Shown piece after piece: positions 1 to 10,630 of a DNA stretch of 10,630 nucleotides. Location: NCBI GenBank assembly GCA_016206745.1, contig JACQQW010000183.1:1-10630 (forward strand). The letters run 5' to 3'. The notes under the pieces are model-generated. The model had not been told where the DNA came from. It saw only the letters and a list, made by a program, of their open reading frames with translations, and ran no database searches. This stretch comes from Candidatus Omnitrophota bacterium. Its GTDB lineage: Bacteria; Omnitrophota; Gorgyraeia; Zapsychrales; Fredricksoniimonadaceae. The position numbers and the translations under genes were made by a program. The first letter of the stretch is position 1. Every line of letters starts with the position of its first letter.

Positions 1-3000
1 ATCACAAACAGCCGTTTAATGTTGGGCTGGATGAATTTAACAACTGGTTGCAGGGCAGGGAATACACCGAGAAACAGTTCAATGAGATGAAGGAAATTTT
101 ACGGCAGGCGCCCTGGCCTGGCATTGATATCAAGACGGCGGATGCGAATCAAACGCTCCTGGAATTGATTCAGGGGAATTTATCCAACGTTATTATCACG
201 TACGGCAATGAGAACGCCGAAGAAATAACGAAATTTTTAAATAGCAACGGTAAGGAGGCCGTGTTCTTACGGGGTGTCAGTGAAGGGGAAGACCCGGAAG
301 AAAGCCGCAGAAACAAGGCCTTAATGGAGGAAGCCTTAAAAGGTGGTAAGCCAGGTAAGATTTATGTGGCCACGCCGGTGTTCGCCAAAAAATACGGGTT
401 CAAAGGCGATTATCGCCTGATCATCATGCACGCCCAGCGCTGGGACACCACGGACCTAAGCCATGCCCTTAACCGCATCTTGCGCAGTCATAAGAAAGAT
501 GAGCAGGGAGACAAATATTTCCTCTATGACAGTGAAGAAATCACCCCCTTTATAAATTACGTCAGCGACGACATCCGGGAAATCGAAAAATTGCAAGACC
601 CGAACATCCCGGCGGACATTGCGGAATATATCCGGCAATTTAAAAGAATAGAGAAACAAGATTTGGAACAAAGAGAGCCGTATGCCATGTTGGAATTGGT
701 GACGGATTTCCGGCAATTATTGCTGCGTTCCAGCGCGCATGAGCATGCCATTTTGAATATGTTCCGCAACGCCTATACAACAAATTTTATATATAACTTA
801 TACAACACCGCCCAAAACGACGAAGAAAAGGAAGCCCTTAAAGAGGCGTTATTTAAAGACGCCGTGAGTGGCCACGCCCAGCAAGAACTCAATGACCGGT
901 ATTTGACCAGCATAGAATGGTTCAATGCCGCCCATAAAGCGAGTATCGAGGCCGTGCAAATTATGCTTAAAGATTTGCTGGTCCTGCACCGCAAGAAATT
1001 GGATCCGGAAACGGTCAAGAAAATAGAAGAGTATCTGAACTTCCTCGAACAGCGCAAGAACAAGACGCTCAATGAATTGCATCCGGTCAATAATTCCCCT
1101 CAAGAGTGGAAAAAGGCCATTCGCGAGGCGGGGAAGGAGGAACGCGTATTTACGCCGGAAGAATATGATGCTTTCTACGAAGGCGCGGCCTATTTGGCCC
1201 GTTGGAAAATGGCCAGTGATATAAAGAGTGTTTATGAAAATTCTTATGCCAATGTGGTGGAAGTAAGCTATTTAGAAGACACCGTGGCAGATGCCCTCAA
1301 AGGCAACGGGGACTTGGTCAAAAAGGGCCGGCTGACCCCCAAGGGCGTTCAGGTTGTGCAGCTGATGGAGGCCCTGCAGAAGCTTAGCCCGCAATTAAAT
1401 CAAGCGCTGGCCAAGCTGCTCAAATCGAATGATGTGGCGCAGGCCAGGCAGCTGCTGGGGGCCCAAGCGAGGCCACAGGACATTGCTTTTGCCGCGTTGC
1501 TGGCGGCCCTGGGTCTGGTAAGCCATAAAGAGGAGTTGCAAGAGCAGTTGAAAGCGCTGCACGAAGATCGTAGATTGTTCCCCACCGTCGTCATTTTGTC
1601 CCGCCTGGCCGAGGCCCAAGGGAAAACCGAAATTGTGGAAGCTCTAAAATACCTGGTCAATCAAGACCTGATCCAGCAGGAAGATGGGCCTGGAATGCCA
1701 AAGCTGGGAATGGTGGACAACTGGATGTCCAAATTATCCCCAGATGCCTGGGTGAAAGATTCGCCCTTTGTCGAGGCCCACGGACTTGACGTGAATGTCT
1801 CTCTGGCTCTGGCCAGGTTTAACATAGACAGTTTAAAAGCCGTTGCCGCGGGCACCACGCTTGCGCCGTATGAGGTTTTGACCGCGCTGGCCCTGTCAGA
1901 GGCGTTCGATGAGCTGGCGGCCCAGGCCCAGCGCCATAAAGATGATCAATTCAAAGAGCAGGTGGAGTCTTTAAAGAACATTATAGAGAGGTTGAAACGG
2001 CAAGCCCTGGACGAAGAAAAAGCCGATATGCTTAAAGACACCCCCTATAATCTTGACCATCCCGATACAGAGGCCAATGTGCCGATTGTGCTCCAGGTGC
2101 TGGACGCGCTGGAAAAAAAGTACGGTTTTAAAGCAGGCGAACTAGTGGATCGTAAGGTCCTCAACACGGACAGCCATGACCGCATCAAAAATGTCTTGCA
2201 ACAGCGAAAAATCATGGAAGTTGTCCGTTCCCTTGGATCCCTAAGCCCAGCGCTCAAAAGCCAATTGGTCAAGGTGTTCAAGGGCAGGGACGAGATGGAG
2301 CAGGCCAAGGCCCTGATGGCCGCGGGAATCACGACGCCGCAGGAAATGCAATTGGCCGCGCTGCTATTGAAGCTAAGGCTGGTTAACAAGAATTCACTGC
2401 TCCAGGAAATAGAAAAGGCCCGCAAAGTCCAATCCATATTGCCCAATGTTTCAGCCGTGTACCTCGCGGCCCAGGACAAAGGCCGCAAAGCCGTTGTACA
2501 AGCCTTGAAGCCTTTATATGATGCCGTACACGCCGCGGAAACTCCCTTGGAAATATCCGCCACCGGTGAGACAACCTTTACTGGCGCCGTCTTTGCCGGT
2601 ATTGTAAACGTTTTTGAGCAATTAAGCCTTGAAGACTTAAGGGCCATCGCCGGCAAAGGGCTTAATTCCCTTAATCCATACGAGGTCTTAACAGCACTTG
2701 GTATTCCGGAATTTTTGGAGGACATCTTGACCAAGGCCCAGGGCCAAGAGCAGGAAATCAGAGAACAAATGGTCCGTTTGGCAGAAGATATGCGCCAGCA
2801 ATTGGAAGCATTAAAACTGCAAAGCCTGGCCTATGAAGCCGCCCAGATCATCAGTAAAGGGCGCCGGTACACCCAACGGATTTCAGATGACCGGCGGCTG
2901 CAAATACTCCTGGATGCGGTCACTTCGTTGGAACAAAAATACAAGGTGGAATTGACCTATACAGCGGCCAATGAGTATGAAGGGGCTGACCTCAGGCTGG

Positions 3001-6000
3001 TCAATCCGGACGCCGCCCGGATGGTGGAGGAAACGCTGGAGCAAATGAATGCAGCGGCTAAAAAGGACCAGAAAAGCTGGTGGAACACAGCGCGCAAAAA
3101 AACCGCCAAGGTTGCGGGCATTGCGGCCATGATGTTCATGTTCCATTTTGGCCATAATGCGGACGCTCATAATAATAGGGGAGATCACGGTACAGGTGGA
3201 ATGCCGGCGCCTACTTCTCCGGTCACTACCCCGCCGGCGCCGTTTACGCTGCCTGCTGTTCCCGCGCCGGGACCGAACCCTGATCCAATGCCGGCACCAG
3301 GTGGCGGCGGCGCAGGAGGAGGAAAAGCTTCGGGCGGCAATGCGCCGGTGGTGGTAGAACAAGTCGGTGAACATCGAGGGCTGGCATTAAGGATCGACGC
3401 TCCGGCTAAGGCCACACAAGTTCGAGATGGAAAAGATCGAATAAAAACCACATTTGCCTCAAAGCGCGGAGAATCGCCGGGCATTACTTCATCTGTCGCC
3501 TCTTCTCCCAAGAGGTCAGACAGAGGAAATGCAATACAAGGGACAAAAGCAGGACAAGTAGTTAGCAGCACAGCAGTTGCAGCAAAACGTAGTCCTAACA
3601 GTGAAGTTGCAGTTAGAGAGGTTAGCGCGAGCTTTGTCTCGCCGGAAGCACAAGAAGGTGTAGAGACGCATAGCAATGCGTCTGTACAAGAAGTTGATGT
3701 GCCAGAAGGTACGGGCTCTGACAGGACGAGAGATCGCTCTCGTGCCGCAGATGATGATCGCAGTACAAATGTTGTACTTGACAATGGAAATAGCGCGTCT
3801 AACCATACGCCCGGTTTACGCCGTGCGAATGATGGTATAAGCGCCCAAGGTGTATCAACCACAGAAGCAGAGAGTCTGCCTAGTGTACAAGGTGGACAAA
3901 CTATGGAAGTGGGAAATATACGCTCTGAGGGTGGCGACGTAGGCGCTACATATACAGGAATCAGGAAGTACATGTCCTTGGCAGGGACTCTGTCTCTGGC
4001 AGGAATTGCTTATCTGGCAATAGGTGCAAGGAGTCTGTCCAGCCGGATAGGTATAAGGACAAGCCACAAATCTCAAGGTTCTCGAAGTGTGCCCAACGGC
4101 AGGCATAAAGAACCTAAATCTGCCGCAGTGCAAGAAGTGTCTGTCCCATCAGTTGATGGCCCTAATCAAAACAGGGTCAAAACCGACGGTAGGGTTCGTG
4201 CGTCCTTCCAATATATAAATAATCTTCTCAGCCGCATCAAAGCATTAACCAGCGTGACCTTCTTCATTTCATTTGTCGAAATCCTAACAACCTTTATCCA
4301 ACGCAAAGGGGGTACCACATGGTCGCCCAACAACTCAAATTCCAACACGTCGTCAACCTCCCCAACATCGACTCTCAAATCGCCACAGCCCGCGACTCCC
4401 GCAACAGGACCCACATCTACCTCATCGTCAACCATCAAGGCCCTGTTTACAAAAGGAACGGTATCAACGGCACCTGGGACATTGTTGGTCCCGGCGATCG
4501 CCGCCTTGTCCTTGATCTTATTGACGCCGGCAACGGCCGCGGCCGCCTTGCCCGGTATAGCACCGGTAATGTCGTTTGTTAGCGCGTATATTGTTCCATA
4601 TTTGATCGTATCGGCTGTTTTGAGCCTGTTCATATTGTTGTTTTGGGACCATACAGAACATATAATTCGCAGGGCATGGCAAGTTTTGATGGCATGGTTT
4701 AATCCTGACGGCATTCAGGCCGTTTCTGCGGCCCCCCACAATGTGGTCACGAACCAGACTACTACCGCCAAAGCAAAGCCACTGAGCCATTATATTCATC
4801 TGGGTATTTTCGGCGTGGCCGGAGGCGTTGTTCTTTTATGGAGTATTGGCGGACTGCCCTGGCTGACCCCGTTGTTCTTCCCTATTGTCGACAGCGCCAT
4901 TCACAATATCACGCCCTACTTAACGGCATTATTTAAAGATGTCCCTGCGGATTCCGTCCTTGGGTGGGTCAAAACCGCTTTTGATGCCTTTAAGCTTTCT
5001 AATGACATCCCGGACCTTGTCGTTAAATTGGCCATTACTTTTGCCTTGAGTATAGAATCGGTTTTGGTCAAAAACTTCCCCAATTTAAAGAACATTTTTA
5101 AAAAAGAAAAAGATAAAGAAAAAGATGTGGTGTCCAAACAAAGCCTTGGTGTTCTGCTGTGGGACACCTTGAATTTTGCCGCGTTGCTGTACCTTGTATT
5201 CAGCGGTATTCATATCATTGAAAAAGGGGCAATCAACAGTGCTCTGGGACATATTATTCAGTGGAATATTTATGAAGCATGGAATGTACTCAAAAATATA
5301 TTCAGCAATGGATTTGACCGTCAAACCGTCTTTGAACTCATCATGGTCGGCATGTTCTTCAAGGTCTTTTACTTTGGGACAGGCATTGTTAAAAAACTTT
5401 TCCAAGGCGAAGAATATTTGCTTAAGGTCAATGCCCATGGCAAGTCCCGCAGGAACACGGTCATACAAGACATGAGAGCAATTTTTACGGCCTATTTCGG
5501 CCCGGAAGCTGTAGGCCAATTTAATGAGATCATTGCGGGCGTACCGACCAGCCGCGCCGGCAATAAGCAAATTGCCCGGGCCTATTTGATTTTATTGAAG
5601 AATCTTAAGGGCATTCATGATCTTTATACCCGAAATGACCATACCCGTCCGGAATTCGTTCAGGAATTCTACGCGGCCTTGTCTAAACAGGGCACCATGG
5701 TTAAATTCTTTAAAGGCATTCCATTTCTTGTGATGTTTGTCGGATTGGCTGTTGGCATGGTCCATAATTACTGGATCATGTTATACGCAGGTTTAATGAT
5801 GAAATTGGTGTTCGGCGGTTTCGCGGAAGAATCCAGAAAGCTCTTTAAAAGCGTGTTTGGCGTGTACCGGATAAAGGCTTTGCAGAATTTGTCTCCAAAG
5901 TGGCGGACCATCATCGGAGTTCCGTTTGCGCCGTTGGTGTTTGCGGCAGGGGTGGGCGCATTTTTGTGGAGCATGCTGGAGAAATTCCTTTTGCCTGTGG

Positions 6001-9000
6001 CTTTATATATTTCCCAACGGGATTTTGAAGCATGGCATAAACCGGACATTGGTGTGCCTGCGGACAAGCAAGAAGAAGCCCGCGATAAAACCAAGAAAGA
6101 GATCATGACGGTATTGGCTTATTTAAAGAATCCCAATGCCCTGACAGGGCTGGAGCCATTAAAGCTGCGCTACGCGGCAGCCACATTTGATTTTTCGATC
6201 CGCTGGAATTTCTTGTATTCTTTTGGTTATTTCTTGCTCTTTCGTTTGTTTATGTACGTCGTTTCACACATTACCCCGGGTATTGTAGGGGCCATCGAAC
6301 AGATTCCTTCATTCAAGCATATTTTAACCAATGAGCAGGTCATTTGGGGATGGCTGGGCCCGGTGCTGGAGCGAGTGCTGCCATTGGATTGGGTGACTGA
6401 TGCCAAGCATTTATTTAAATTCACCGGGTCTGAGATCTTGAGATTGCATTTGCTGGGATTCTTGCTGCATCCATGGGCCGCAATCAAAGTCGTGTTGGAC
6501 AAATTTCTTGATTTTAATGCGGCCAAGGCTTTCGCGGGGCTTTATGTCAATCCGCAGTTAGGTTATAAGAAATACGGCGTCCCCACTCTTGAAGCAGACC
6601 AACTCATTGACCGTTTGTTCTCAGACAGCGGCAGTATTAAGCCAGAGGAAAAAGAAAACATCAAAAAACAACTGGAACAAGCCCATCAAAGCGGCAGGTT
6701 AAGGTTTAAGAGCCCATTATCAAGGGTCCTTTTGACTGAGCATTTTGGTTTGATCATGGAAGGTCAGAATTTTGATGCCGTCAGGCAGCGTGATTCTTTA
6801 TTGTCCTTAACCAAACGGACTTTGAGGAAAACATTGCTCGCGGTCTTGTCGGGGATCATCGTATTGACGCTGCCGGTTGTGCCGTACTTTATTTTTGTCG
6901 GTTCCAATAAGTACGCATTTCGTAATCAGTTCTTTAGTTTATTGACCCAGCAGCAAATGCGCCAATACCACAGCATTGTGGGTTTGATGACCGTTAACGC
7001 GGAAATTGCGGCGGGGGTAGGGATCGGGGAAAAACTGGAAGGTCTGCCTAAAGTTTTAGTTCATTTGGCGGAAGGCGCAAGCGCCCCGAATGGATACCAT
7101 GGGTCGGCGTTGAATATAGCGGAATCGTTCTTAAAATTGTTCGGCATAGATCCGAAGAATGATGTGCCGCATGTTCAAAATTGGGTTGCATCCACGTTTG
7201 GCTTCAAGGGTGATCTTAGAAGTTGGGCAGAGTATCTCACAGTCAAGAATGCTTATGGCGAAACCATAGCGGCAAAGGATTTGAAAGGACTCCCTCCGGA
7301 GGTTGCAAAACATATAGATAAGCATGGTGAGTTCCCGGATTATGAATTGTTTGATCAATGGTACCAGGAAGCCAAAGACAAAAAGAATGGCAAAGCCCGG
7401 ATGACCGAAACCCTCAACTGGCTGAGGGACAATTTGGGTGAGGCAAATTTTGACATCACGAAATACGCGGGACTTAAGGACAATGCGGCTTTGACGGCGA
7501 AATTGAAAGAAGACGGGGTGGTGGCCGCATTGCTGGTCAAGAAAATCAATGAAAGCAATGCCCCAGGCATTGTTACTGCCCGGACGGAAAAAGATCCGCA
7601 AGGCAATGGGCCGGTCATCAAGATTGATATCATCCGGTTGGGACCCAAGGGCCAAAGTGCCATCAAGATTGAGCAAGGGGACGGTAAAGCCATCGAGATC
7701 AATGCCGAAGGAGAAGTGGTCCCCGCCGCGGATGATATCAAAGCGGATTTGGTGCCCCAATCCACCGCCAAACCATCCGGCCCGCGCATTATATTGACCA
7801 CTTCGGCGGAGAGTTTGATCGGCGGGCCATTGAATATGTCCAAACTCCATGAGGCATTGGCCAAAGAGTTAAAGCGTGAAGCCAACAGCGTTTTGGTGTT
7901 CGGCATCCAGGAAGAGGCCAATAAGGCAAGCGCGCAAGACCGTCCGGAAGGCAATGTGGGCGCGCTCATGAACGCCTTGAACCAGAGATATGGTAATGTG
8001 ACCACGCTTTACAAAAATAATGAAGAATTGTTCGGGCCCGTAATCACTTTGGAAGATTTTCAAAAAGCCCTGGCCGACGGACGCTTGACCACCCAGGAAA
8101 TCCAGGCATTGCCCAAAGCGTTCATTGAATTTCTGGAAAAGAAAGCCGGGTATAAACCCGAGGATACGGGCAGGGTCATCACCATCGATGAAATGGCCGC
8201 TATCGCCGACAGAGAAAAAGTCCTGGCGTCCAGGTCCAAAGAATTCTGGACGGTGTTTCATGTGGATGTGGACGAGGTCATTAAGAATGGGAATGTTTCC
8301 GTCCAGGATTTAAGGATCCAGGCGGCGCAGTGGCTCAATGATGGCAGGGATCGCAAGGGCAAGGCTGTCCGTATTCAGATCGCTCAATACGGGGAGCATT
8401 CTCTAAGCGGCGATTTGCTCACCGTGTCTTTGGCGAAGCTTTTTGAAGACCCCCTCCCTAGCCCTCCCCACAAGGGGGAGGGAACATTGGGTGAGAGGAC
8501 TCTCCACAAGGGGGAGGGAAGATACCTCGATGACATCAACGCTTTGTTTGCCGCCAAAGCGGAAGAATATAAAGACGGGCATTATTTCGCGGACCCGGTC
8601 AAGGCCAGGTCCCTGAAAGAGCAAGCCATGCCGCCGGAACAGCCGACGGAGAAACAGCGGGTCACGGTCAAGAATTTCGCCGAGATATTGTCCCGGGACA
8701 AGGCCGCGATGGAACAAAAGCAGGCCAGGACCGCGGCCCAAACATTGGCCGCGTTGACAAACATCCCCGGACAGTGGAAGACCCTGGATGAATTGTTGCG
8801 GCCGCAGCAGCATGGCGAACGTTACAGCAAAGACCTGCACGGCAAGGCGTATGAGGCTTTGGGGGCCGCTTTAAAAGACGCCACCGGTCACGCGCCGCGG
8901 ACATCGGAGGAATTCGCCCAGGCCATGGAGTTCGTGGCCAGGAAACTGATGGGCCGGCACGACGAGGTCCCGTTCAAAGATATTATCGACCATCTGGCAA

Positions 9001-10630
9001 AAGAAATGCAGCAGGCGCAGGACCGCGAAAAAGCAAATCGCGCCCGCAATGAAGAGATACGAAAATTGGAGGGAAAAGACCCCACAGAGATCGCTAAGAT
9101 TAAAGAAGATCTTAGAAAGAAGCACGAAGATGATTTAAGGGCACATGTGTTTGAACGGAATTATGCCTATGAACGCGAGAAACAATTTATTTCATTTGCC
9201 CATCCTGAACCAAGCTCGAGCGGATGGCGGGGGACCGTTACGGGATGGCTTCGCAATACACAACAGGCGCGGTTAAAGCAAGATTGGGAAGACAAAGCGG
9301 ACCTGGCGCAACACCTGACCATGAGCAAAGGGGTCTTTGCCCAAGACCTGAAATATAAAATTGCCAAAGACGATATTATTCGCATCGGCAGGGAACTTGG
9401 CCCGCAATGGTTCAAGGCGGAATACGCCGGCGATGATCCGGCCTTGACGGGCAAGAATTATGCCAGGGCCATTGCTTTGGTTAAGAAAGACCAGGAGATC
9501 ATTGGATTGCGCCTGCATACACTGCAGTCTTCGCGAGACAAAGCGTATGACGATGTCCGCGTTCAAATGGCGGAAGAGCAAAAGAAGATCATCGAATGGA
9601 ATTACCAAAAAGACATTGTCCAAAAGGCCGAGGTCAAGGCCGGCTTGGAACAGCAAATCCTGTCGGCACAGCAAGCCATTGAAGGATTAAGGAAAAAGTT
9701 GATTGAGATCGATCTCAACAGGTTTGAAGAAGAGAATTCCGGGGCGCAAAGAAACAGGTTCGCGCAGGAGGACGCGCAAGAGGAATTAAAGAAACAACGG
9801 GAAAAGCCCATGGAAGAACGGCGCAAGGCCTTGCTGGACGGCATCGGCAAAACCAATGCAAATCTCAAGGCCGCCGCGGATTTGAAGGTGCACCAGACGG
9901 TCCTGGAACTGGAAGACCTGGCAAAAGCTTCCGAAAAGACGAGGGAAGTCAAAGAGTTATTGGCCAAGGCGGCGCAACTGATGGCGGAAGGATATTTAGG
10001 GCAGGGCGAAGCAGGGCTGGCCCAAGCGCGCGAACATGTCAAGGCCATCACTACCAGCGCGGTTTTGGCGTACGCGAAGGGCGGGCAAACGCCGCAAGTC
10101 GAACAGCTCACCCAAGCCCTGGCCTCTTTGAACATAGCGGCGGTGAACAAAAATATTAGAGATGATGAGGTCAAACGTCTTAGCGCCAAGCTCCATATGT
10201 CACCGGAGGAAATGGCAAAAATTGTGACCCTCAAGAAAGTGCTGCGGTATCTTAACGGCTATGACGAGGACGGACAGCATCATAAAGGCCGGATTGAAAT
10301 CGCCGATGGAATGGACATTTTGACCCATGACCCGGCGCAGTTGGATCAGTTGATAGCCGGCAAAGAAGCGAAAATACAAATAGAAACTATTGAATTACAT
10401 AAGGCCCGGGCGGCTAAGGACGATCAAAAAGTCAAGCAGGTCCAAGAGAATATTAAAACGCTTAATCAACTCGTTGAAATGCTCAAAGAAAAAAGAGACG
10501 CGCTCACCGCCATCACGCGGCTTAGCGACCAGCCCATCCATGATTTGAGCCGCTCGATGGAAGGGGAAATCAATTTGGTCTTGCGGGAGCGCCAGATCCA
10601 GGTCCGCCAGGCCTACGCGCGGTTCTGGGA
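1..10630 (+). CDS. Internal part of a giant multidomain membrane protein (both ends outside window)
   Basis: One reading frame, with codons starting at base 3, crosses the whole window without a stop. I translated it completely and found 3,542 sense codons. Neither the start nor the stop is present, so the full protein is larger. The product has a SecA/helicase-like domain, a duplicated helical unit, an embedded signal-like segment, disordered linkers, a polytopic membrane block, a soluble alpha/beta part and coiled coils, in that order. Recognisable protein character (amphipathic helices, hydrophobic spans, a duplicated unit) continues in this frame throughout, so it is not a chance open frame. 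It contains no Cys. No catalytic site or named family for the whole protein could be recognised. By architecture it resembles the giant proteins reported from Omnitrophota, which is inference. The expected location is the inner membrane with soluble parts on one or both sides. Certain as an open frame; function unknown. Confidence 0.95.
177..557 (+). other. Domain: degenerate SecA-like / SF2 helicase C-terminal (RecA2) domain
   Basis: Residues 59-185. The strand-helix opening SNVIITYGNENAEEITKFL matches the start of the second RecA domain of SecA and other SF2 ATPases. IYVATPVFAKKYGF (120-133) sits where SecA has its motif V (ATNMAGRGTDI): AT is kept but the Gly-Arg-Gly-Thr-Asp part is lost. 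YRLIIMHAQRWDTTDLSHAL (137-156), then NRILRS (157-162), parallels the SecA stretch from IIGTERHESRRIDNQL to motif VI (QLRGRSGRQGD), with R158 and R161 as possible remnants of the arginines. GDKYFLYDSEE (169-179) parallels the SecA 'SRFFLSLED' strand. The order and spacing of these blocks argue for SecA rather than a DNA helicase. Loss of key motif V and VI residues suggests a structural or binding domain rather than an active ATPase. The first RecA domain with its Walker motifs would lie upstream of the window. Confidence 0.55.
558..1352 (+). other. Domain: helical, charged region of unknown function
   Basis: Residues 186-450 are rich in Glu, Lys, Ala and Leu and have the spacing of a series of amphipathic helices, with few Gly or Pro breaks apart from HPVNNSPQEW (360-369). 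In SecA the second RecA domain is followed by helical scaffold and wing domains, so this stretch could be a far relative of them. I see no specific motif that proves it. No membrane span and no signal sequence are visible. It leads directly into the duplicated unit. Confidence 0.45.
1353..2132 (+). repeat. Protein repeat unit, copy A
   Basis: Residues 451-710. This is the first of two diverged copies of a helical unit. Landmarks shared with copy B, in the same order, are LSPQLNQALAKLLKSND (461-477), PQDIAFAALLAALGLV (491-506), LFPTVV (525-530), a Gly followed by VEALKYL, PYEVLTAL (622-629), and a closing VLQVLDALEKKYGFK (696-710). The last part before the closing motif is a Gln/Glu/Lys-rich helix (AQAQRHKDDQFKEQVESL), perhaps a short coiled coil. 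Copy A has an extra stretch, around 560-600, that copy B lacks or has replaced. The unit matches no family I know. Confidence 0.75.
2211..2951 (+). repeat. Protein repeat unit, copy B
   Basis: Residues 737-983. It repeats the landmarks of copy A: LSPALKSQLVKVFKGRD (747-763), PQEMQLAALLLKLRLV (779-794), ILPNVS (812-817), VVQALKPLY, NPYEVLTAL (891-899), a Gln/Glu-rich helix (KAQGQEQEIREQMVRLAEDM) and a closing ILLDAVTSLEQKYKVE (968-983). The eight-residue PYEVLTAL is identical in both copies while most other positions differ, so the duplication is old and this segment is probably constrained. A 26-residue spacer (711-736) separates the two copies. Confidence 0.75.
3087..3167 (+). other. Embedded signal-peptide-like / signal-anchor segment
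   Basis: Residues 1029-1055. A basic stretch (ARKKTAK, 1030-1036) is followed by a hydrophobic core VAGIAAMMFMFHF (1037-1049) and then GHNADA (1050-1055), with an Ala-Asp-Ala that fits the small-x-small rule for signal peptidase I. The sequence right after it turns into a His/Asn/Gly then Pro/Gly-rich linker, as often follows a membrane anchor or cleaved signal. The core is only about 13 residues, shorter than a normal membrane span. The three-part layout is seen directly; that it inserts or is cleaved is inference. Confidence 0.5.
3180..3344 (+). other. Pro/Gly/Ala-rich linker
   Basis: Residues 1060-1114 are low complexity: a Pro-rich part with two MPAP tetrapeptides and PAPGPNPDP, then GGGGAGGGKASGG. 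Such sequence is flexible or extended and often spans cell wall or periplasm between an anchor and a folded domain. It starts directly after the signal-like segment. Confidence 0.8.
3345..3962 (+). other. Long polar, probably disordered linker
   Basis: Residues 1115-1320 are rich in Ser, Gly, Asp, Arg, Val, Ala and Thr, with no regular hydrophobic pattern, no clear helices and almost no aromatic residues. Local clusters include RTRDRSRAADDDRS (1241-1254). Codon choice also differs from the rest of the gene: Ala is mostly GCA here and mostly GCC or GCG elsewhere, and Gly GGA/GGT and Arg AGA/CGA are more common. It joins the signal-like segment to the first isolated hydrophobic span at 1324. 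Confidence 0.7.
3972..4031 (+). other. Predicted membrane span
   Basis: Residues 1324-1343, MSLAGTLSLAGIAYLAIGAR, form a 19-residue uncharged run of small and aliphatic residues. It is bordered by RK before and by several Arg (R1343, R1348, R1352) after. If it is a span, it would bring the chain back across the membrane after the linker. It is only moderately hydrophobic, so the call is uncertain. Confidence 0.5.
4248..4298 (+). other. Possible membrane span or membrane-surface helix
   Basis: Residues 1416-1432, TSVTFFISFVEILTTFI, are strongly hydrophobic apart from one Glu, with basic residues on both sides (RIK before, QRK after). The length of 17 residues is short for a span. Confidence 0.4.
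4314..4436 (+). other. Ser/Thr/Pro-rich linker
   Basis: Residues 1438-1478 are almost only Ser, Thr, Pro, Asn and Ala (for example NTSSTSPTSTLKSP and GPTSTSSSTIK). This is a typical flexible linker composition and separates the two lone hydrophobic segments from the main membrane block. The same DNA read one base earlier gives an open 87-codon frame (4319-4582); see findings. Confidence 0.7.
4476..6902 (+). other. Domain: large polytopic membrane region, family unknown
   Basis: Residues 1492-2300 hold about a dozen hydrophobic segments, roughly at 1493-1516, 1521-1548, 1599-1620, 1672-1689, 1724-1739, 1776-1796, 1905-1921, 1923-1940, 1969-1990, 2068-2087, 2146-2165 and 2278-2299. Loops include a Lys/Glu tract (FKKEKDKEKD, 1699-1708), a basic loop KSRRNTVIQDM (1814-1824), and soluble segments of about 100 residues at 1797-1900 and 2166-2275. 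Several spans contain Trp, Tyr, His and Pro near their ends. I see no glycosyltransferase DxD signature, ABC motif, or transporter fingerprint that I can name. It would fix the giant protein in the inner membrane. Exact span number and orientation cannot be settled by eye. Confidence 0.7.
6903..8447 (+). other. Domain: soluble alpha/beta region after the membrane block
   Basis: Residues 2301-2815 have no membrane span. They begin with mixed helical sequence. Residues 2536-2575 then look like a run of beta strands and turns (VIKIDIIRLGPKG, AIKIEQGDGKAIEINAEGEV). From 2593 to 2660 a strand-helix-strand pattern (GPRIILTTSAESLIGG, then SVLVFGIQEEANK) resembles a Rossmann-like fold. Two later strands are FWTVFHVDVDEVI (2748-2760) and AVRIQIAQYGEHSLSGDLL (2788-2806). 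I see no catalytic signature that I can name, and no family is recognised. The region ends abruptly at the palindromic insertion. Confidence 0.5.
8448..8522 (+). mobile_element. REP/MITE-like palindromic element inserted inside the coding frame
   Basis: The DNA CCCTCCCC (8462-8469) pairs with GGGGAGGG (8475-8482) around a 5-base loop. A further CCCTCCC copy lies just upstream (8452-8458). The 17-base string CCACAAGGGGGAGGGAA occurs twice, at 8468-8484 and 8504-8520, exactly 36 bases apart. C-rich/G-rich palindromes of this CCCTCCCC-ACAAG-GGGGAGGG type are common dispersed intergenic repeats in bacterial genomes. Here the element is read in frame as residues 2816-2840, beginning DPLPSPPHKGEG and containing HKGEG twice. 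This peptide does not resemble its surroundings and looks like translated repeat DNA. The reading frame stays open on both sides. Confidence 0.75.
8523..8978 (+). other. Helical charged region after the insertion
   Basis: Residues 2841-2992 are polar and mostly helical by pattern, without membrane spans. They include TLDELLRPQQHGERYSKDL (2927-2945) and SEEFAQAMEFVARKLMGRH (2967-2985). No family is recognised. It leads into the first coiled-coil stretch. Confidence 0.4.
8979..9182 (+). other. Predicted coiled coil 1
   Basis: Residues 2993-3060 are dense in Glu, Lys, Arg, Asp and Gln with spaced Ile, Leu and Ala (for example AKEMQQAQDREKANRARNEE and IAKIKEDLRKKHEDDLRAHV), as in a long surface-exposed helix or coiled coil. 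A Gly/Asp/Pro break at about 3024-3027 divides it into two helices. Confidence 0.6.
9483..10022 (+). other. Predicted coiled coil 2 and helical bundle
   Basis: Residues 3161-3340 form a long, highly charged helix-rich stretch (EEQKKIIEWNYQKDIVQKAE, QQAIEGLRKKLIEIDLNRFE, QEELKKQREKPMEERRKALL) with heptad-like Leu/Ile spacing. After 3310 the pattern changes to Ala/Leu-rich short helices (AKAAQLMAEGYLGQGEAGLA) that recall tetratricopeptide-like packing, but I cannot assign a repeat family. GIGKT at 3280-3284 is not a P-loop, because the required leading Gly is a Leu. Confidence 0.6.
10332..10630 (+). other. Predicted coiled coil 3, continuing past the window end
   Basis: Residues 3444-3542 are again strongly charged helix with Leu/Ile at coiled-coil-like spacing (LDQLIAGKEAKIQIETIELH, VQENIKTLNQLVEMLKEKRD). 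The open frame and its helical character run to the last base, so the downstream part of the protein is missing here. Confidence 0.6.

Follow-up and report, generated by a model that had tools for sequence, protein, structure and literature searches.

Introduction

In a 2023 bioRxiv preprint, West-Roberts et al. reportedly described giant genes that reach 85,804 codons, are commonest in Omnitrophota and encode many membrane segments; most of these giants are said to have divergent SecA DEAD helicase domains, and adhesion to prey together with wall degradation was reportedly proposed as their use. Giant open reading frames (ORFs) of Omnitrophota were published by Seymour et al. in 2023, where a size of more than 20 kb was used for a giant ORF and an ORF of V. 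archaeovorus LiM reaches 39,678 amino acids (PMC10066038). Gigantic Omnitrophota proteins with lipocone domains, which are multi-domain and have membrane segments, have been read as predation machines (PMC12419801). Here we describe a stretch of 10,630 nucleotides from Candidatus Omnitrophota bacterium (GenBank assembly GCA_016206745.1, contig JACQQW010000183.1; this whole stretch is called the window), which is almost certainly an interior piece of one Omnitrophota giant protein gene and which, judging from a structure model and conserved motifs, very probably carries half of an SF2/SecA-type motor.

The window shows no clear departure from what West-Roberts et al. reportedly describe: its many hydrophobic segments, seen by hydropathy, and the second RecA-like (RecA2) half of a SecA-type motor, indicated by structure and motifs, both match Omnitrophota giants, and that work is not known to remark on cysteine. 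It resembles the giants of PMC10066038 in phylum, oversize frame, many predicted membrane helices, few annotated domains and poor conservation, and differs from them in that its 3,542 codons are only a part of the gene. With the lipocone giants (PMC12419801) it shares the giant multi-domain build and the membrane segments but, unlike them, it has no lipocone, LysM or kinase domain detectable by Pfam or NCBIfam. The available text of PMC10066038 has no mention of SecA or of cysteine. In a literature search that covered few subscription papers and no preprints, nothing was found that ties Omnitrophota giants to SecA, and nothing on cysteine-free giant bacterial proteins in connection with predation. 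A giant ORF with a SecA-like motor in Omnitrophota is of a kind already known, to which the window adds one example, while the cysteine pattern reported below may be a new remark.

Results

One reading frame of the plus strand runs through the whole window without a stop codon:

3..10628, + strand: open frame of 3,542 codons with 0 cysteines, both ends lying beyond the contig

Stop codons number 156 and 205 in the other two plus-strand frames and 76, 210 and 82 in the three minus-strand frames. Given the base composition of the window, the probability of 3,542 stop-free codons is ~10^-79.5; a first-pass annotation, made from the sequence by itself, had given e^-170 (~10^-74) under equal codon use, and both values are negligible. 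Its claim that a single coding frame spans the window is borne out by these stop counts and by codon usage, which in the open frame correlates at r = 0.89 with that of the ORFs on 14 readable contigs of its bin and in the five other frames at −0.11 to 0.55. The open frame scored best in all eight blocks (seven of 1.5 kb and one of 130 bases), although it was only weakly ahead (0.26 vs 0.20) in block 3001-4500, where the composition is biased. The G+C content is 0.50 both in the window and in the 14 other contigs. The window is the whole of contig C133 (G, C and L labels denote genomes, contigs and loci numbered within this analysis), and therefore neither end of the gene is in hand; the bin holds 1,359,408 bases in 299 contigs and is 69.17% complete. 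An Rfam scan of the window gave nothing at gathering scores, and no tandem repeats were found in it.

When residues 1-2700 were searched against 73 related genomes, four matched, namely the window's own bin, G005, G043 and G004, and the matches in the last three all lie inside giant ORFs. In G005 (Candidatus Omnitrophota bacterium isolate ND2_Bin_17), the 33,245-base contig C24 is taken up entirely by a single open frame of 11,081 codons; in G043 (Candidatus Zapsychrus exili), the ORF is closed and has 9,937 codons (C24:37451-67261); in G004, an ORF of 17,411 codons extends to base 2 of its contig. The records of G005 and G043 both belong to the phylum Omnitrophota, and the window's bin belongs to the same family as G005 and G004 and to the same order as G043. 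The first-pass annotation had taken the window for a piece of an Omnitrophota giant gene and had suggested a profile search against the giant proteins of that phylum; in the protein and profile searches made here, the strong relatives are giant ORFs, two of them in Omnitrophota records. Giant ORFs of this kind occur in independent genomes, one of them within a 1.55 Mb contig. A profile, A2, matched 31 of the 384 phylum genomes, many of the weak matches lying in ORFs of 480-1,073 codons; these 31 cannot be taken as a count of giants, as a scan of two of the weak loci showed an ordinary SF2 helicase in each (L037, Mfd-like, and L039).

Neither Pfam (the whole window and three pieces) nor NCBIfam (the whole window) gave any family over its curated cut-off, and the names that appeared under the cut-off (DNA_repr_REX1B, MSMEG_6209_Nter, DUF6176, GP46, XFP and DUF6197) were judged to be chance. 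Polyketide synthase, nonribosomal peptide synthetase, RTX adhesin and Rhs domains were among those not seen above the cut-offs, so the earlier statement that the window matches no ordinary long bacterial protein stands within these two libraries. Sequence searches of the PDB with the window, with residues 1-500 alone and with profiles A2 and A3 retrieved no SF2 motor and no SecA; matches to albumin-binding, lamin, RecN and other helical proteins and to one designed ATPase had E values of 0.012 or worse and were discarded. Six matches in a viral structure library (E <= 0.001) fitted poorly and gave no lead. A collection of ~5.8 billion proteins, in which candidates were limited to 0.55-1.75 times the query length, yielded no protein other than that of the window itself, and the G043 motor had no match there. 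A search of genome contigs with one sequence found no relative, and with profile A2 it found two loci.

The motor-like part of the frame lies at its start and is laid out as follows.

93..566, + strand (residues 31-188): predicted second RecA-like domain of an SF2/SecA-type ATPase, from the model of residues 1-420, Foldseek, VIA-align, an alignment of nine sequences, and a Pfam match to Helicase_C in two relatives, in the part homologous to this one

474-476 and 483-485, + strand: codons of the motif VI arginines R158 and R161, from the alignment of nine sequences

567..1262, + strand (residues 189-420): helical continuation, from the model and from conservation with G005 and G043

Both motif VI arginines are kept in all nine aligned sequences, and the Walker A GKT and the DExD motif in all four that reach that far, at an overall identity of ~30%. 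These four are relatives; in the window R158 and R161 are present and the first half of the SF2 helicase/ATPase unit would lie upstream, beyond the contig end, as does the region corresponding to the preprotein cross-linking domain of SecA. That first half did not turn up in the rest of the bin. Foldseek with the model of residues 1-420 ranked SecA first (13 of 16), and the likeness covers the second RecA-like domain and the helical part behind it; in relatives, the motif I stretch is also SecA-like by profile. On the other hand, the motor is not a separate protein of ~1,000 residues as SecA is, and filing it as SecA was dropped, because no SecA family model of Pfam matches the window or the G005 motor and because hhalign to SecA covers 49 columns. 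The rows of VIA-align are mostly nucleic-acid SF2 proteins, with SecA in 2 of 50, and Pfam gave DEAD/ResIII matches in G043 and Helicase_C in G197 and G162. A model of the whole G005 motor was poor, with a mean predicted local distance difference test (pLDDT) score of 41. An ordinary SecA is additionally present in 27 of 29 related genomes, and none was seen in the incomplete bin of the window. The earlier remark that such giant genes are mostly without function is too bleak, since structure and motifs make residues 31-188 a recognisable half of an SF2/SecA-type motor.

The closed ORF of G043 encodes, in this order, a C39 peptidase, OmpA, DEAD, the motor, 16 hydrophobic segments at residues 7390-8930, M23 and SLT; its complete motor spans residues ~6290-7130. 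An arrangement in which the motor is followed by a membrane region and a soluble end is common to the window and G043; for the latter two parts the likeness is in order alone and may or may not reflect common descent. The membrane region of the window had no significant blastp match to that of G043 or to the glucan synthase region of G004, no profile test having been made. That G004 region is a 1,3-beta-glucan synthase domain (PF02364, 4.5e-44, profile positions 3-496 of 819) at residues ~13011-13497 of the 17,411-codon ORF (C15, L012). Downstream of the G043 giant, the same strand has three further long open frames (C24:67141-100000; L011, L016), which measure 3,548, 2,776 and at least 4,651 codons; the first has 4 cysteines and the second 1. 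The single-contig genome G143, of the same class as the window, has an open frame of 45,379 codons (C1:1156625-1292761, L079-L092), which exceeds the V. archaeovorus ORF in length and matches the G043 motor at residues 4024-4853 (E 3e-26); the run of N seen in this contig (1039529-1039628) lies outside the frame.

The 3,542 residues of the window include no cysteine, where 45.7 would be expected from a baseline of 277 in 21,469 residues (1.29%; ORFs of at least 200 codons on the 14 readable contigs, without the large L101 ORF), and the Poisson chance of none is 1.4e-20. The two remaining plus-strand frames contain 136 and 135 TGY triplets. Cysteines are also few in C190, a contig of the same bin (7), and in the giants of G005 (8), G043 (12) and G004 (12), and 33 of these 39 have another within 12 residues, a degree of pairing that was reached by none of 2,000 shuffles in each of the four. 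Three of the G043 cysteines precede the first methionine of the frame; without them, 30 of 36 are paired. The rarity and close pairing of cysteine in these four giant pieces of one order look like those of an exported, disulfide-bonded protein, although the CxxC pairs at 14077, 14452 and 16344 of G004 and at 4915 of G005 could bind metal instead. The unpaired C218 of G043 lies within the C39 match, and C166 of G004 stands in the same sequence context; both presumably occupy the place of the catalytic cysteine of the C39 family. Among 85 ordinary ORFs of the window's bin, crudely sorted, cysteine makes up 1.45% of those without membrane features, 0.85% of those with a hydrophobic start and 1.01% of multi-pass ones. 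That all giants of the phylum lack cysteine is ruled out by G143, with 431 in 45,379 codons (0.95%). The part of G260 that was seen has none in 5,141 residues, while those of G047 and G162 have 12 and 7 in 5,999 each, with no pairing.

Two further large ORFs of the bin are poor in cysteine, with 2 in 2,320 and 0 in 1,006 residues. The first (L101:2203-9162, contig C8) joins triosephosphate isomerase (PF00121, 2.5e-32), glyceraldehyde-3-phosphate dehydrogenase (Gp_dh_C, 9.2e-12) and class I fructose-bisphosphate aldolase (PF00274, 3.3e-60) in 2,320 codons; its start is signal-peptide-like, and its only two cysteines form a close pair in the dehydrogenase stretch. The literature search, with the coverage given above, found no paper on a fusion of these enzymes in Omnitrophota. 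The second (L121:2-3019, contig C132), of 1,006 codons and open at the contig start, has a weak match to a glpX-type fructose bisphosphatase (2.1e-5, under the cut-off), and its N-terminal stretch is the same, by eye only, as that of the first.

C190 likewise consists of one uninterrupted frame, 4,248 codons long in 12,745 bases, and has a C39 match. Of the 32 genomes of the family, 18 have the N-terminal module of the giant in G004 (its residues 1-400, a membrane segment and a C39-like domain); among the 11 genomes with a completeness of 90% or more and a contamination of 5% or less, 10 have this module. Its best matches fall in ORFs of 7,274-35,884 codons in 10 of the 18 and in ORFs of 496-4,248 codons in the other 8, some of which are perhaps cut by contig ends. 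In the window's bin the module was matched once, in C190. Residues 1490-2510 of C190 match residues 751-1741 of the G005 giant (E 2e-107), and the window matches residues 9441-9924 of the same ORF; the two are therefore probably pieces of one gene. Repeated stretches of the G005 giant are matched by parts of C190 as well. If the spacing in G005 held, the combined gene would have roughly 13,000-14,000 codons. The frame is open over 10.6 kb in the window, and would cover at least 23.4 kb with C190 if the two are one gene, beside relatives of 9,937-17,411 codons.

The remainder of the window is made up of the following parts.

1350..2123, + strand (residues 450-707): duplicated module, copy 1, from identity to copy 2, with related stretches in G005 and G004

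2208..2942, + strand (residues 736-980): duplicated module, copy 2, from identity to copy 1, with related stretches in relatives

3300..4241, + strand (residues 1100-1413): linker rich in P, G, S and T, from composition and hydropathy

4242..6899, + strand (residues 1414-2299): putative membrane region with ~10 hydrophobic segments and loops of up to 185 residues, from hydropathy only

6900..10628, + strand (residues 2300-3542): charged soluble part of 1,243 residues with no significant family and nearly no relatives, from family scans, phylum search and hydropathy

8461..8482, no strand assigned: palindrome like repetitive extragenic palindromic (REP) elements, with 11 matches (<=2 mismatches) in the own bin and 0 for the reversed-pattern control

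The two module copies are identical at 76 of 266 positions (29%; E 7e-14 in a two-sequence comparison), and the related stretches in G005 and G004 have E values of 3e-8 to 3e-4. The linker has one hydrophobic segment, at residue 1324, slightly below the threshold, and the ~10 segments behind it are probably membrane-spanning. Against the 384 phylum genomes, residues 1500-3542 gave, besides themselves, one marginal match (E 9.8e-4). At 8448-8525 the REP-like palindrome and its surroundings are translated in frame and form a short insert rich in proline and glycine.

Discussion

We propose that the giant protein would be exported and anchored in the cell envelope, where the SecA-like ATPase beside the membrane region would spend ATP on moving or refolding the chain at the membrane, and where other arms would act outside through wall-cutting and wall-binding domains such as the OmpA, M23 peptidase and SLT transglycosylase of G043. 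The likely use would be contact with, or attack on, other cells, because such uses are among the published proposals for giants of this type (PMC10066038, PMC12057145). Taken as a whole, the account made up of the giant-gene piece, the motor half, the link to C190 and this mechanism is one that we hold to be probable, if by no means secure; the mechanism of anchoring, ATP-driven movement of the chain and cell contact or attack is tentative, and we would not be surprised to see it fail.

Several observations weigh against this account. The look of an exported protein and an ATP-driven motor are in tension with each other. The crude count of segments behind the motor is even (10 in the window, 16 in G043), which would place the motor and the C-terminal part on the same side and thus fits poorly with a cytoplasmic motor and M23/SLT domains outside; the 11,081 residues of G005 include only 2 hydrophobic segments, neither of which falls in the ~1,300 residues available after the motor. 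Such crude counts leave the topology unsettled. The kinship with SecA is weakened by root-mean-square deviations of 20-30 Å over long alignments in the SecA structure matches, by the modest confidence of the model of residues 1-420 (mean pLDDT 54), and by hhalign, which aligned the second domain with SF2 helicases of the phylum (E 2.8e-6 to 2e-5) but, with 12 SecA of the phylum, aligned 49 columns round motif I (E 7.8e-4) and left the second domain unaligned; by this comparison the motor is closer to ordinary SF2 helicases of the phylum than to SecA. Depletion and pairing of cysteine are not common to all giants of the phylum: G197 has 33 in 6,666 residues with no pairing, and the excess of pairs in G143 is mild (119 vs 88 expected, 7 of 2,000 shuffles). 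Finally, C190 and the window have no exact overlap at their ends, hence no physical link.

A rival reading makes the motor part a remnant and the giant a passive surface adhesin or coat of captured domains, with the SecA-like fold kept for structure outside the cell, without ATP. The cysteine-free or disulfide-like pattern suggests export, the motifs have diverged far enough for the window's domain to escape profile searches of Pfam and the PDB, and adhesion and coat are among the published readings of Omnitrophota giants (PMC10066038). However, drift would not preserve GKT and DExD in four of four sequences and the motif VI arginines in nine of nine at ~30% identity, and we regard a remnant as rather doubtful. 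We consider it unlikely that the motor is a nucleic-acid helicase or translocase in a giant that handles DNA or RNA, for example in attacking a cell or taking up its contents. Such a role would agree with the better hhalign fit to SF2 helicases of the phylum, with the DEAD/ResIII and Helicase_C matches in relatives and with the predominance of nucleic-acid SF2 proteins in the VIA-align rows, but SecA stands at the top by Foldseek, and scans of the window and of G005, G043 and G004 detected neither a nuclease nor any other nucleic-acid domain.

The fragmented, incomplete state of the bin and the failure of the large, length-limited protein collection to yield a relative could mean that the open frame is an artefact of assembly or binning, or that it joins proteins that are separate in the cell. 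This is very improbable, given that G+C content and codon usage fit the bin, that the bin's own REP-like element lies inside the window, that relatives occur in the same family and order, and that such giant ORFs are found in independent genomes, one of them on a contig of 1.55 Mb. A bolder form of the favoured account, in which the exported giant brings its own SecA-like ATPase and this ATPase feeds the remainder of its own chain through, or into, the membrane region that adjoins it, cysteines being purged to avoid cross-links in passage save for pairs that form disulfides outside, seems to us quite improbable; if it were true, the cell could export chains of ten thousand residues or more.

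If the window is just another fragment of a giant gene, it is one more example and little else. The giants of Omnitrophota rank with the longest genes known, and what they do is not settled. ATPase motifs kept in a nearly cysteine-free, exported-looking chain raise the question on which side of the membrane the motor lies and what it moves, and the closed ORF of 9,937 codons in Ca. Zapsychrus exili (G043, L050) lends itself to this question.
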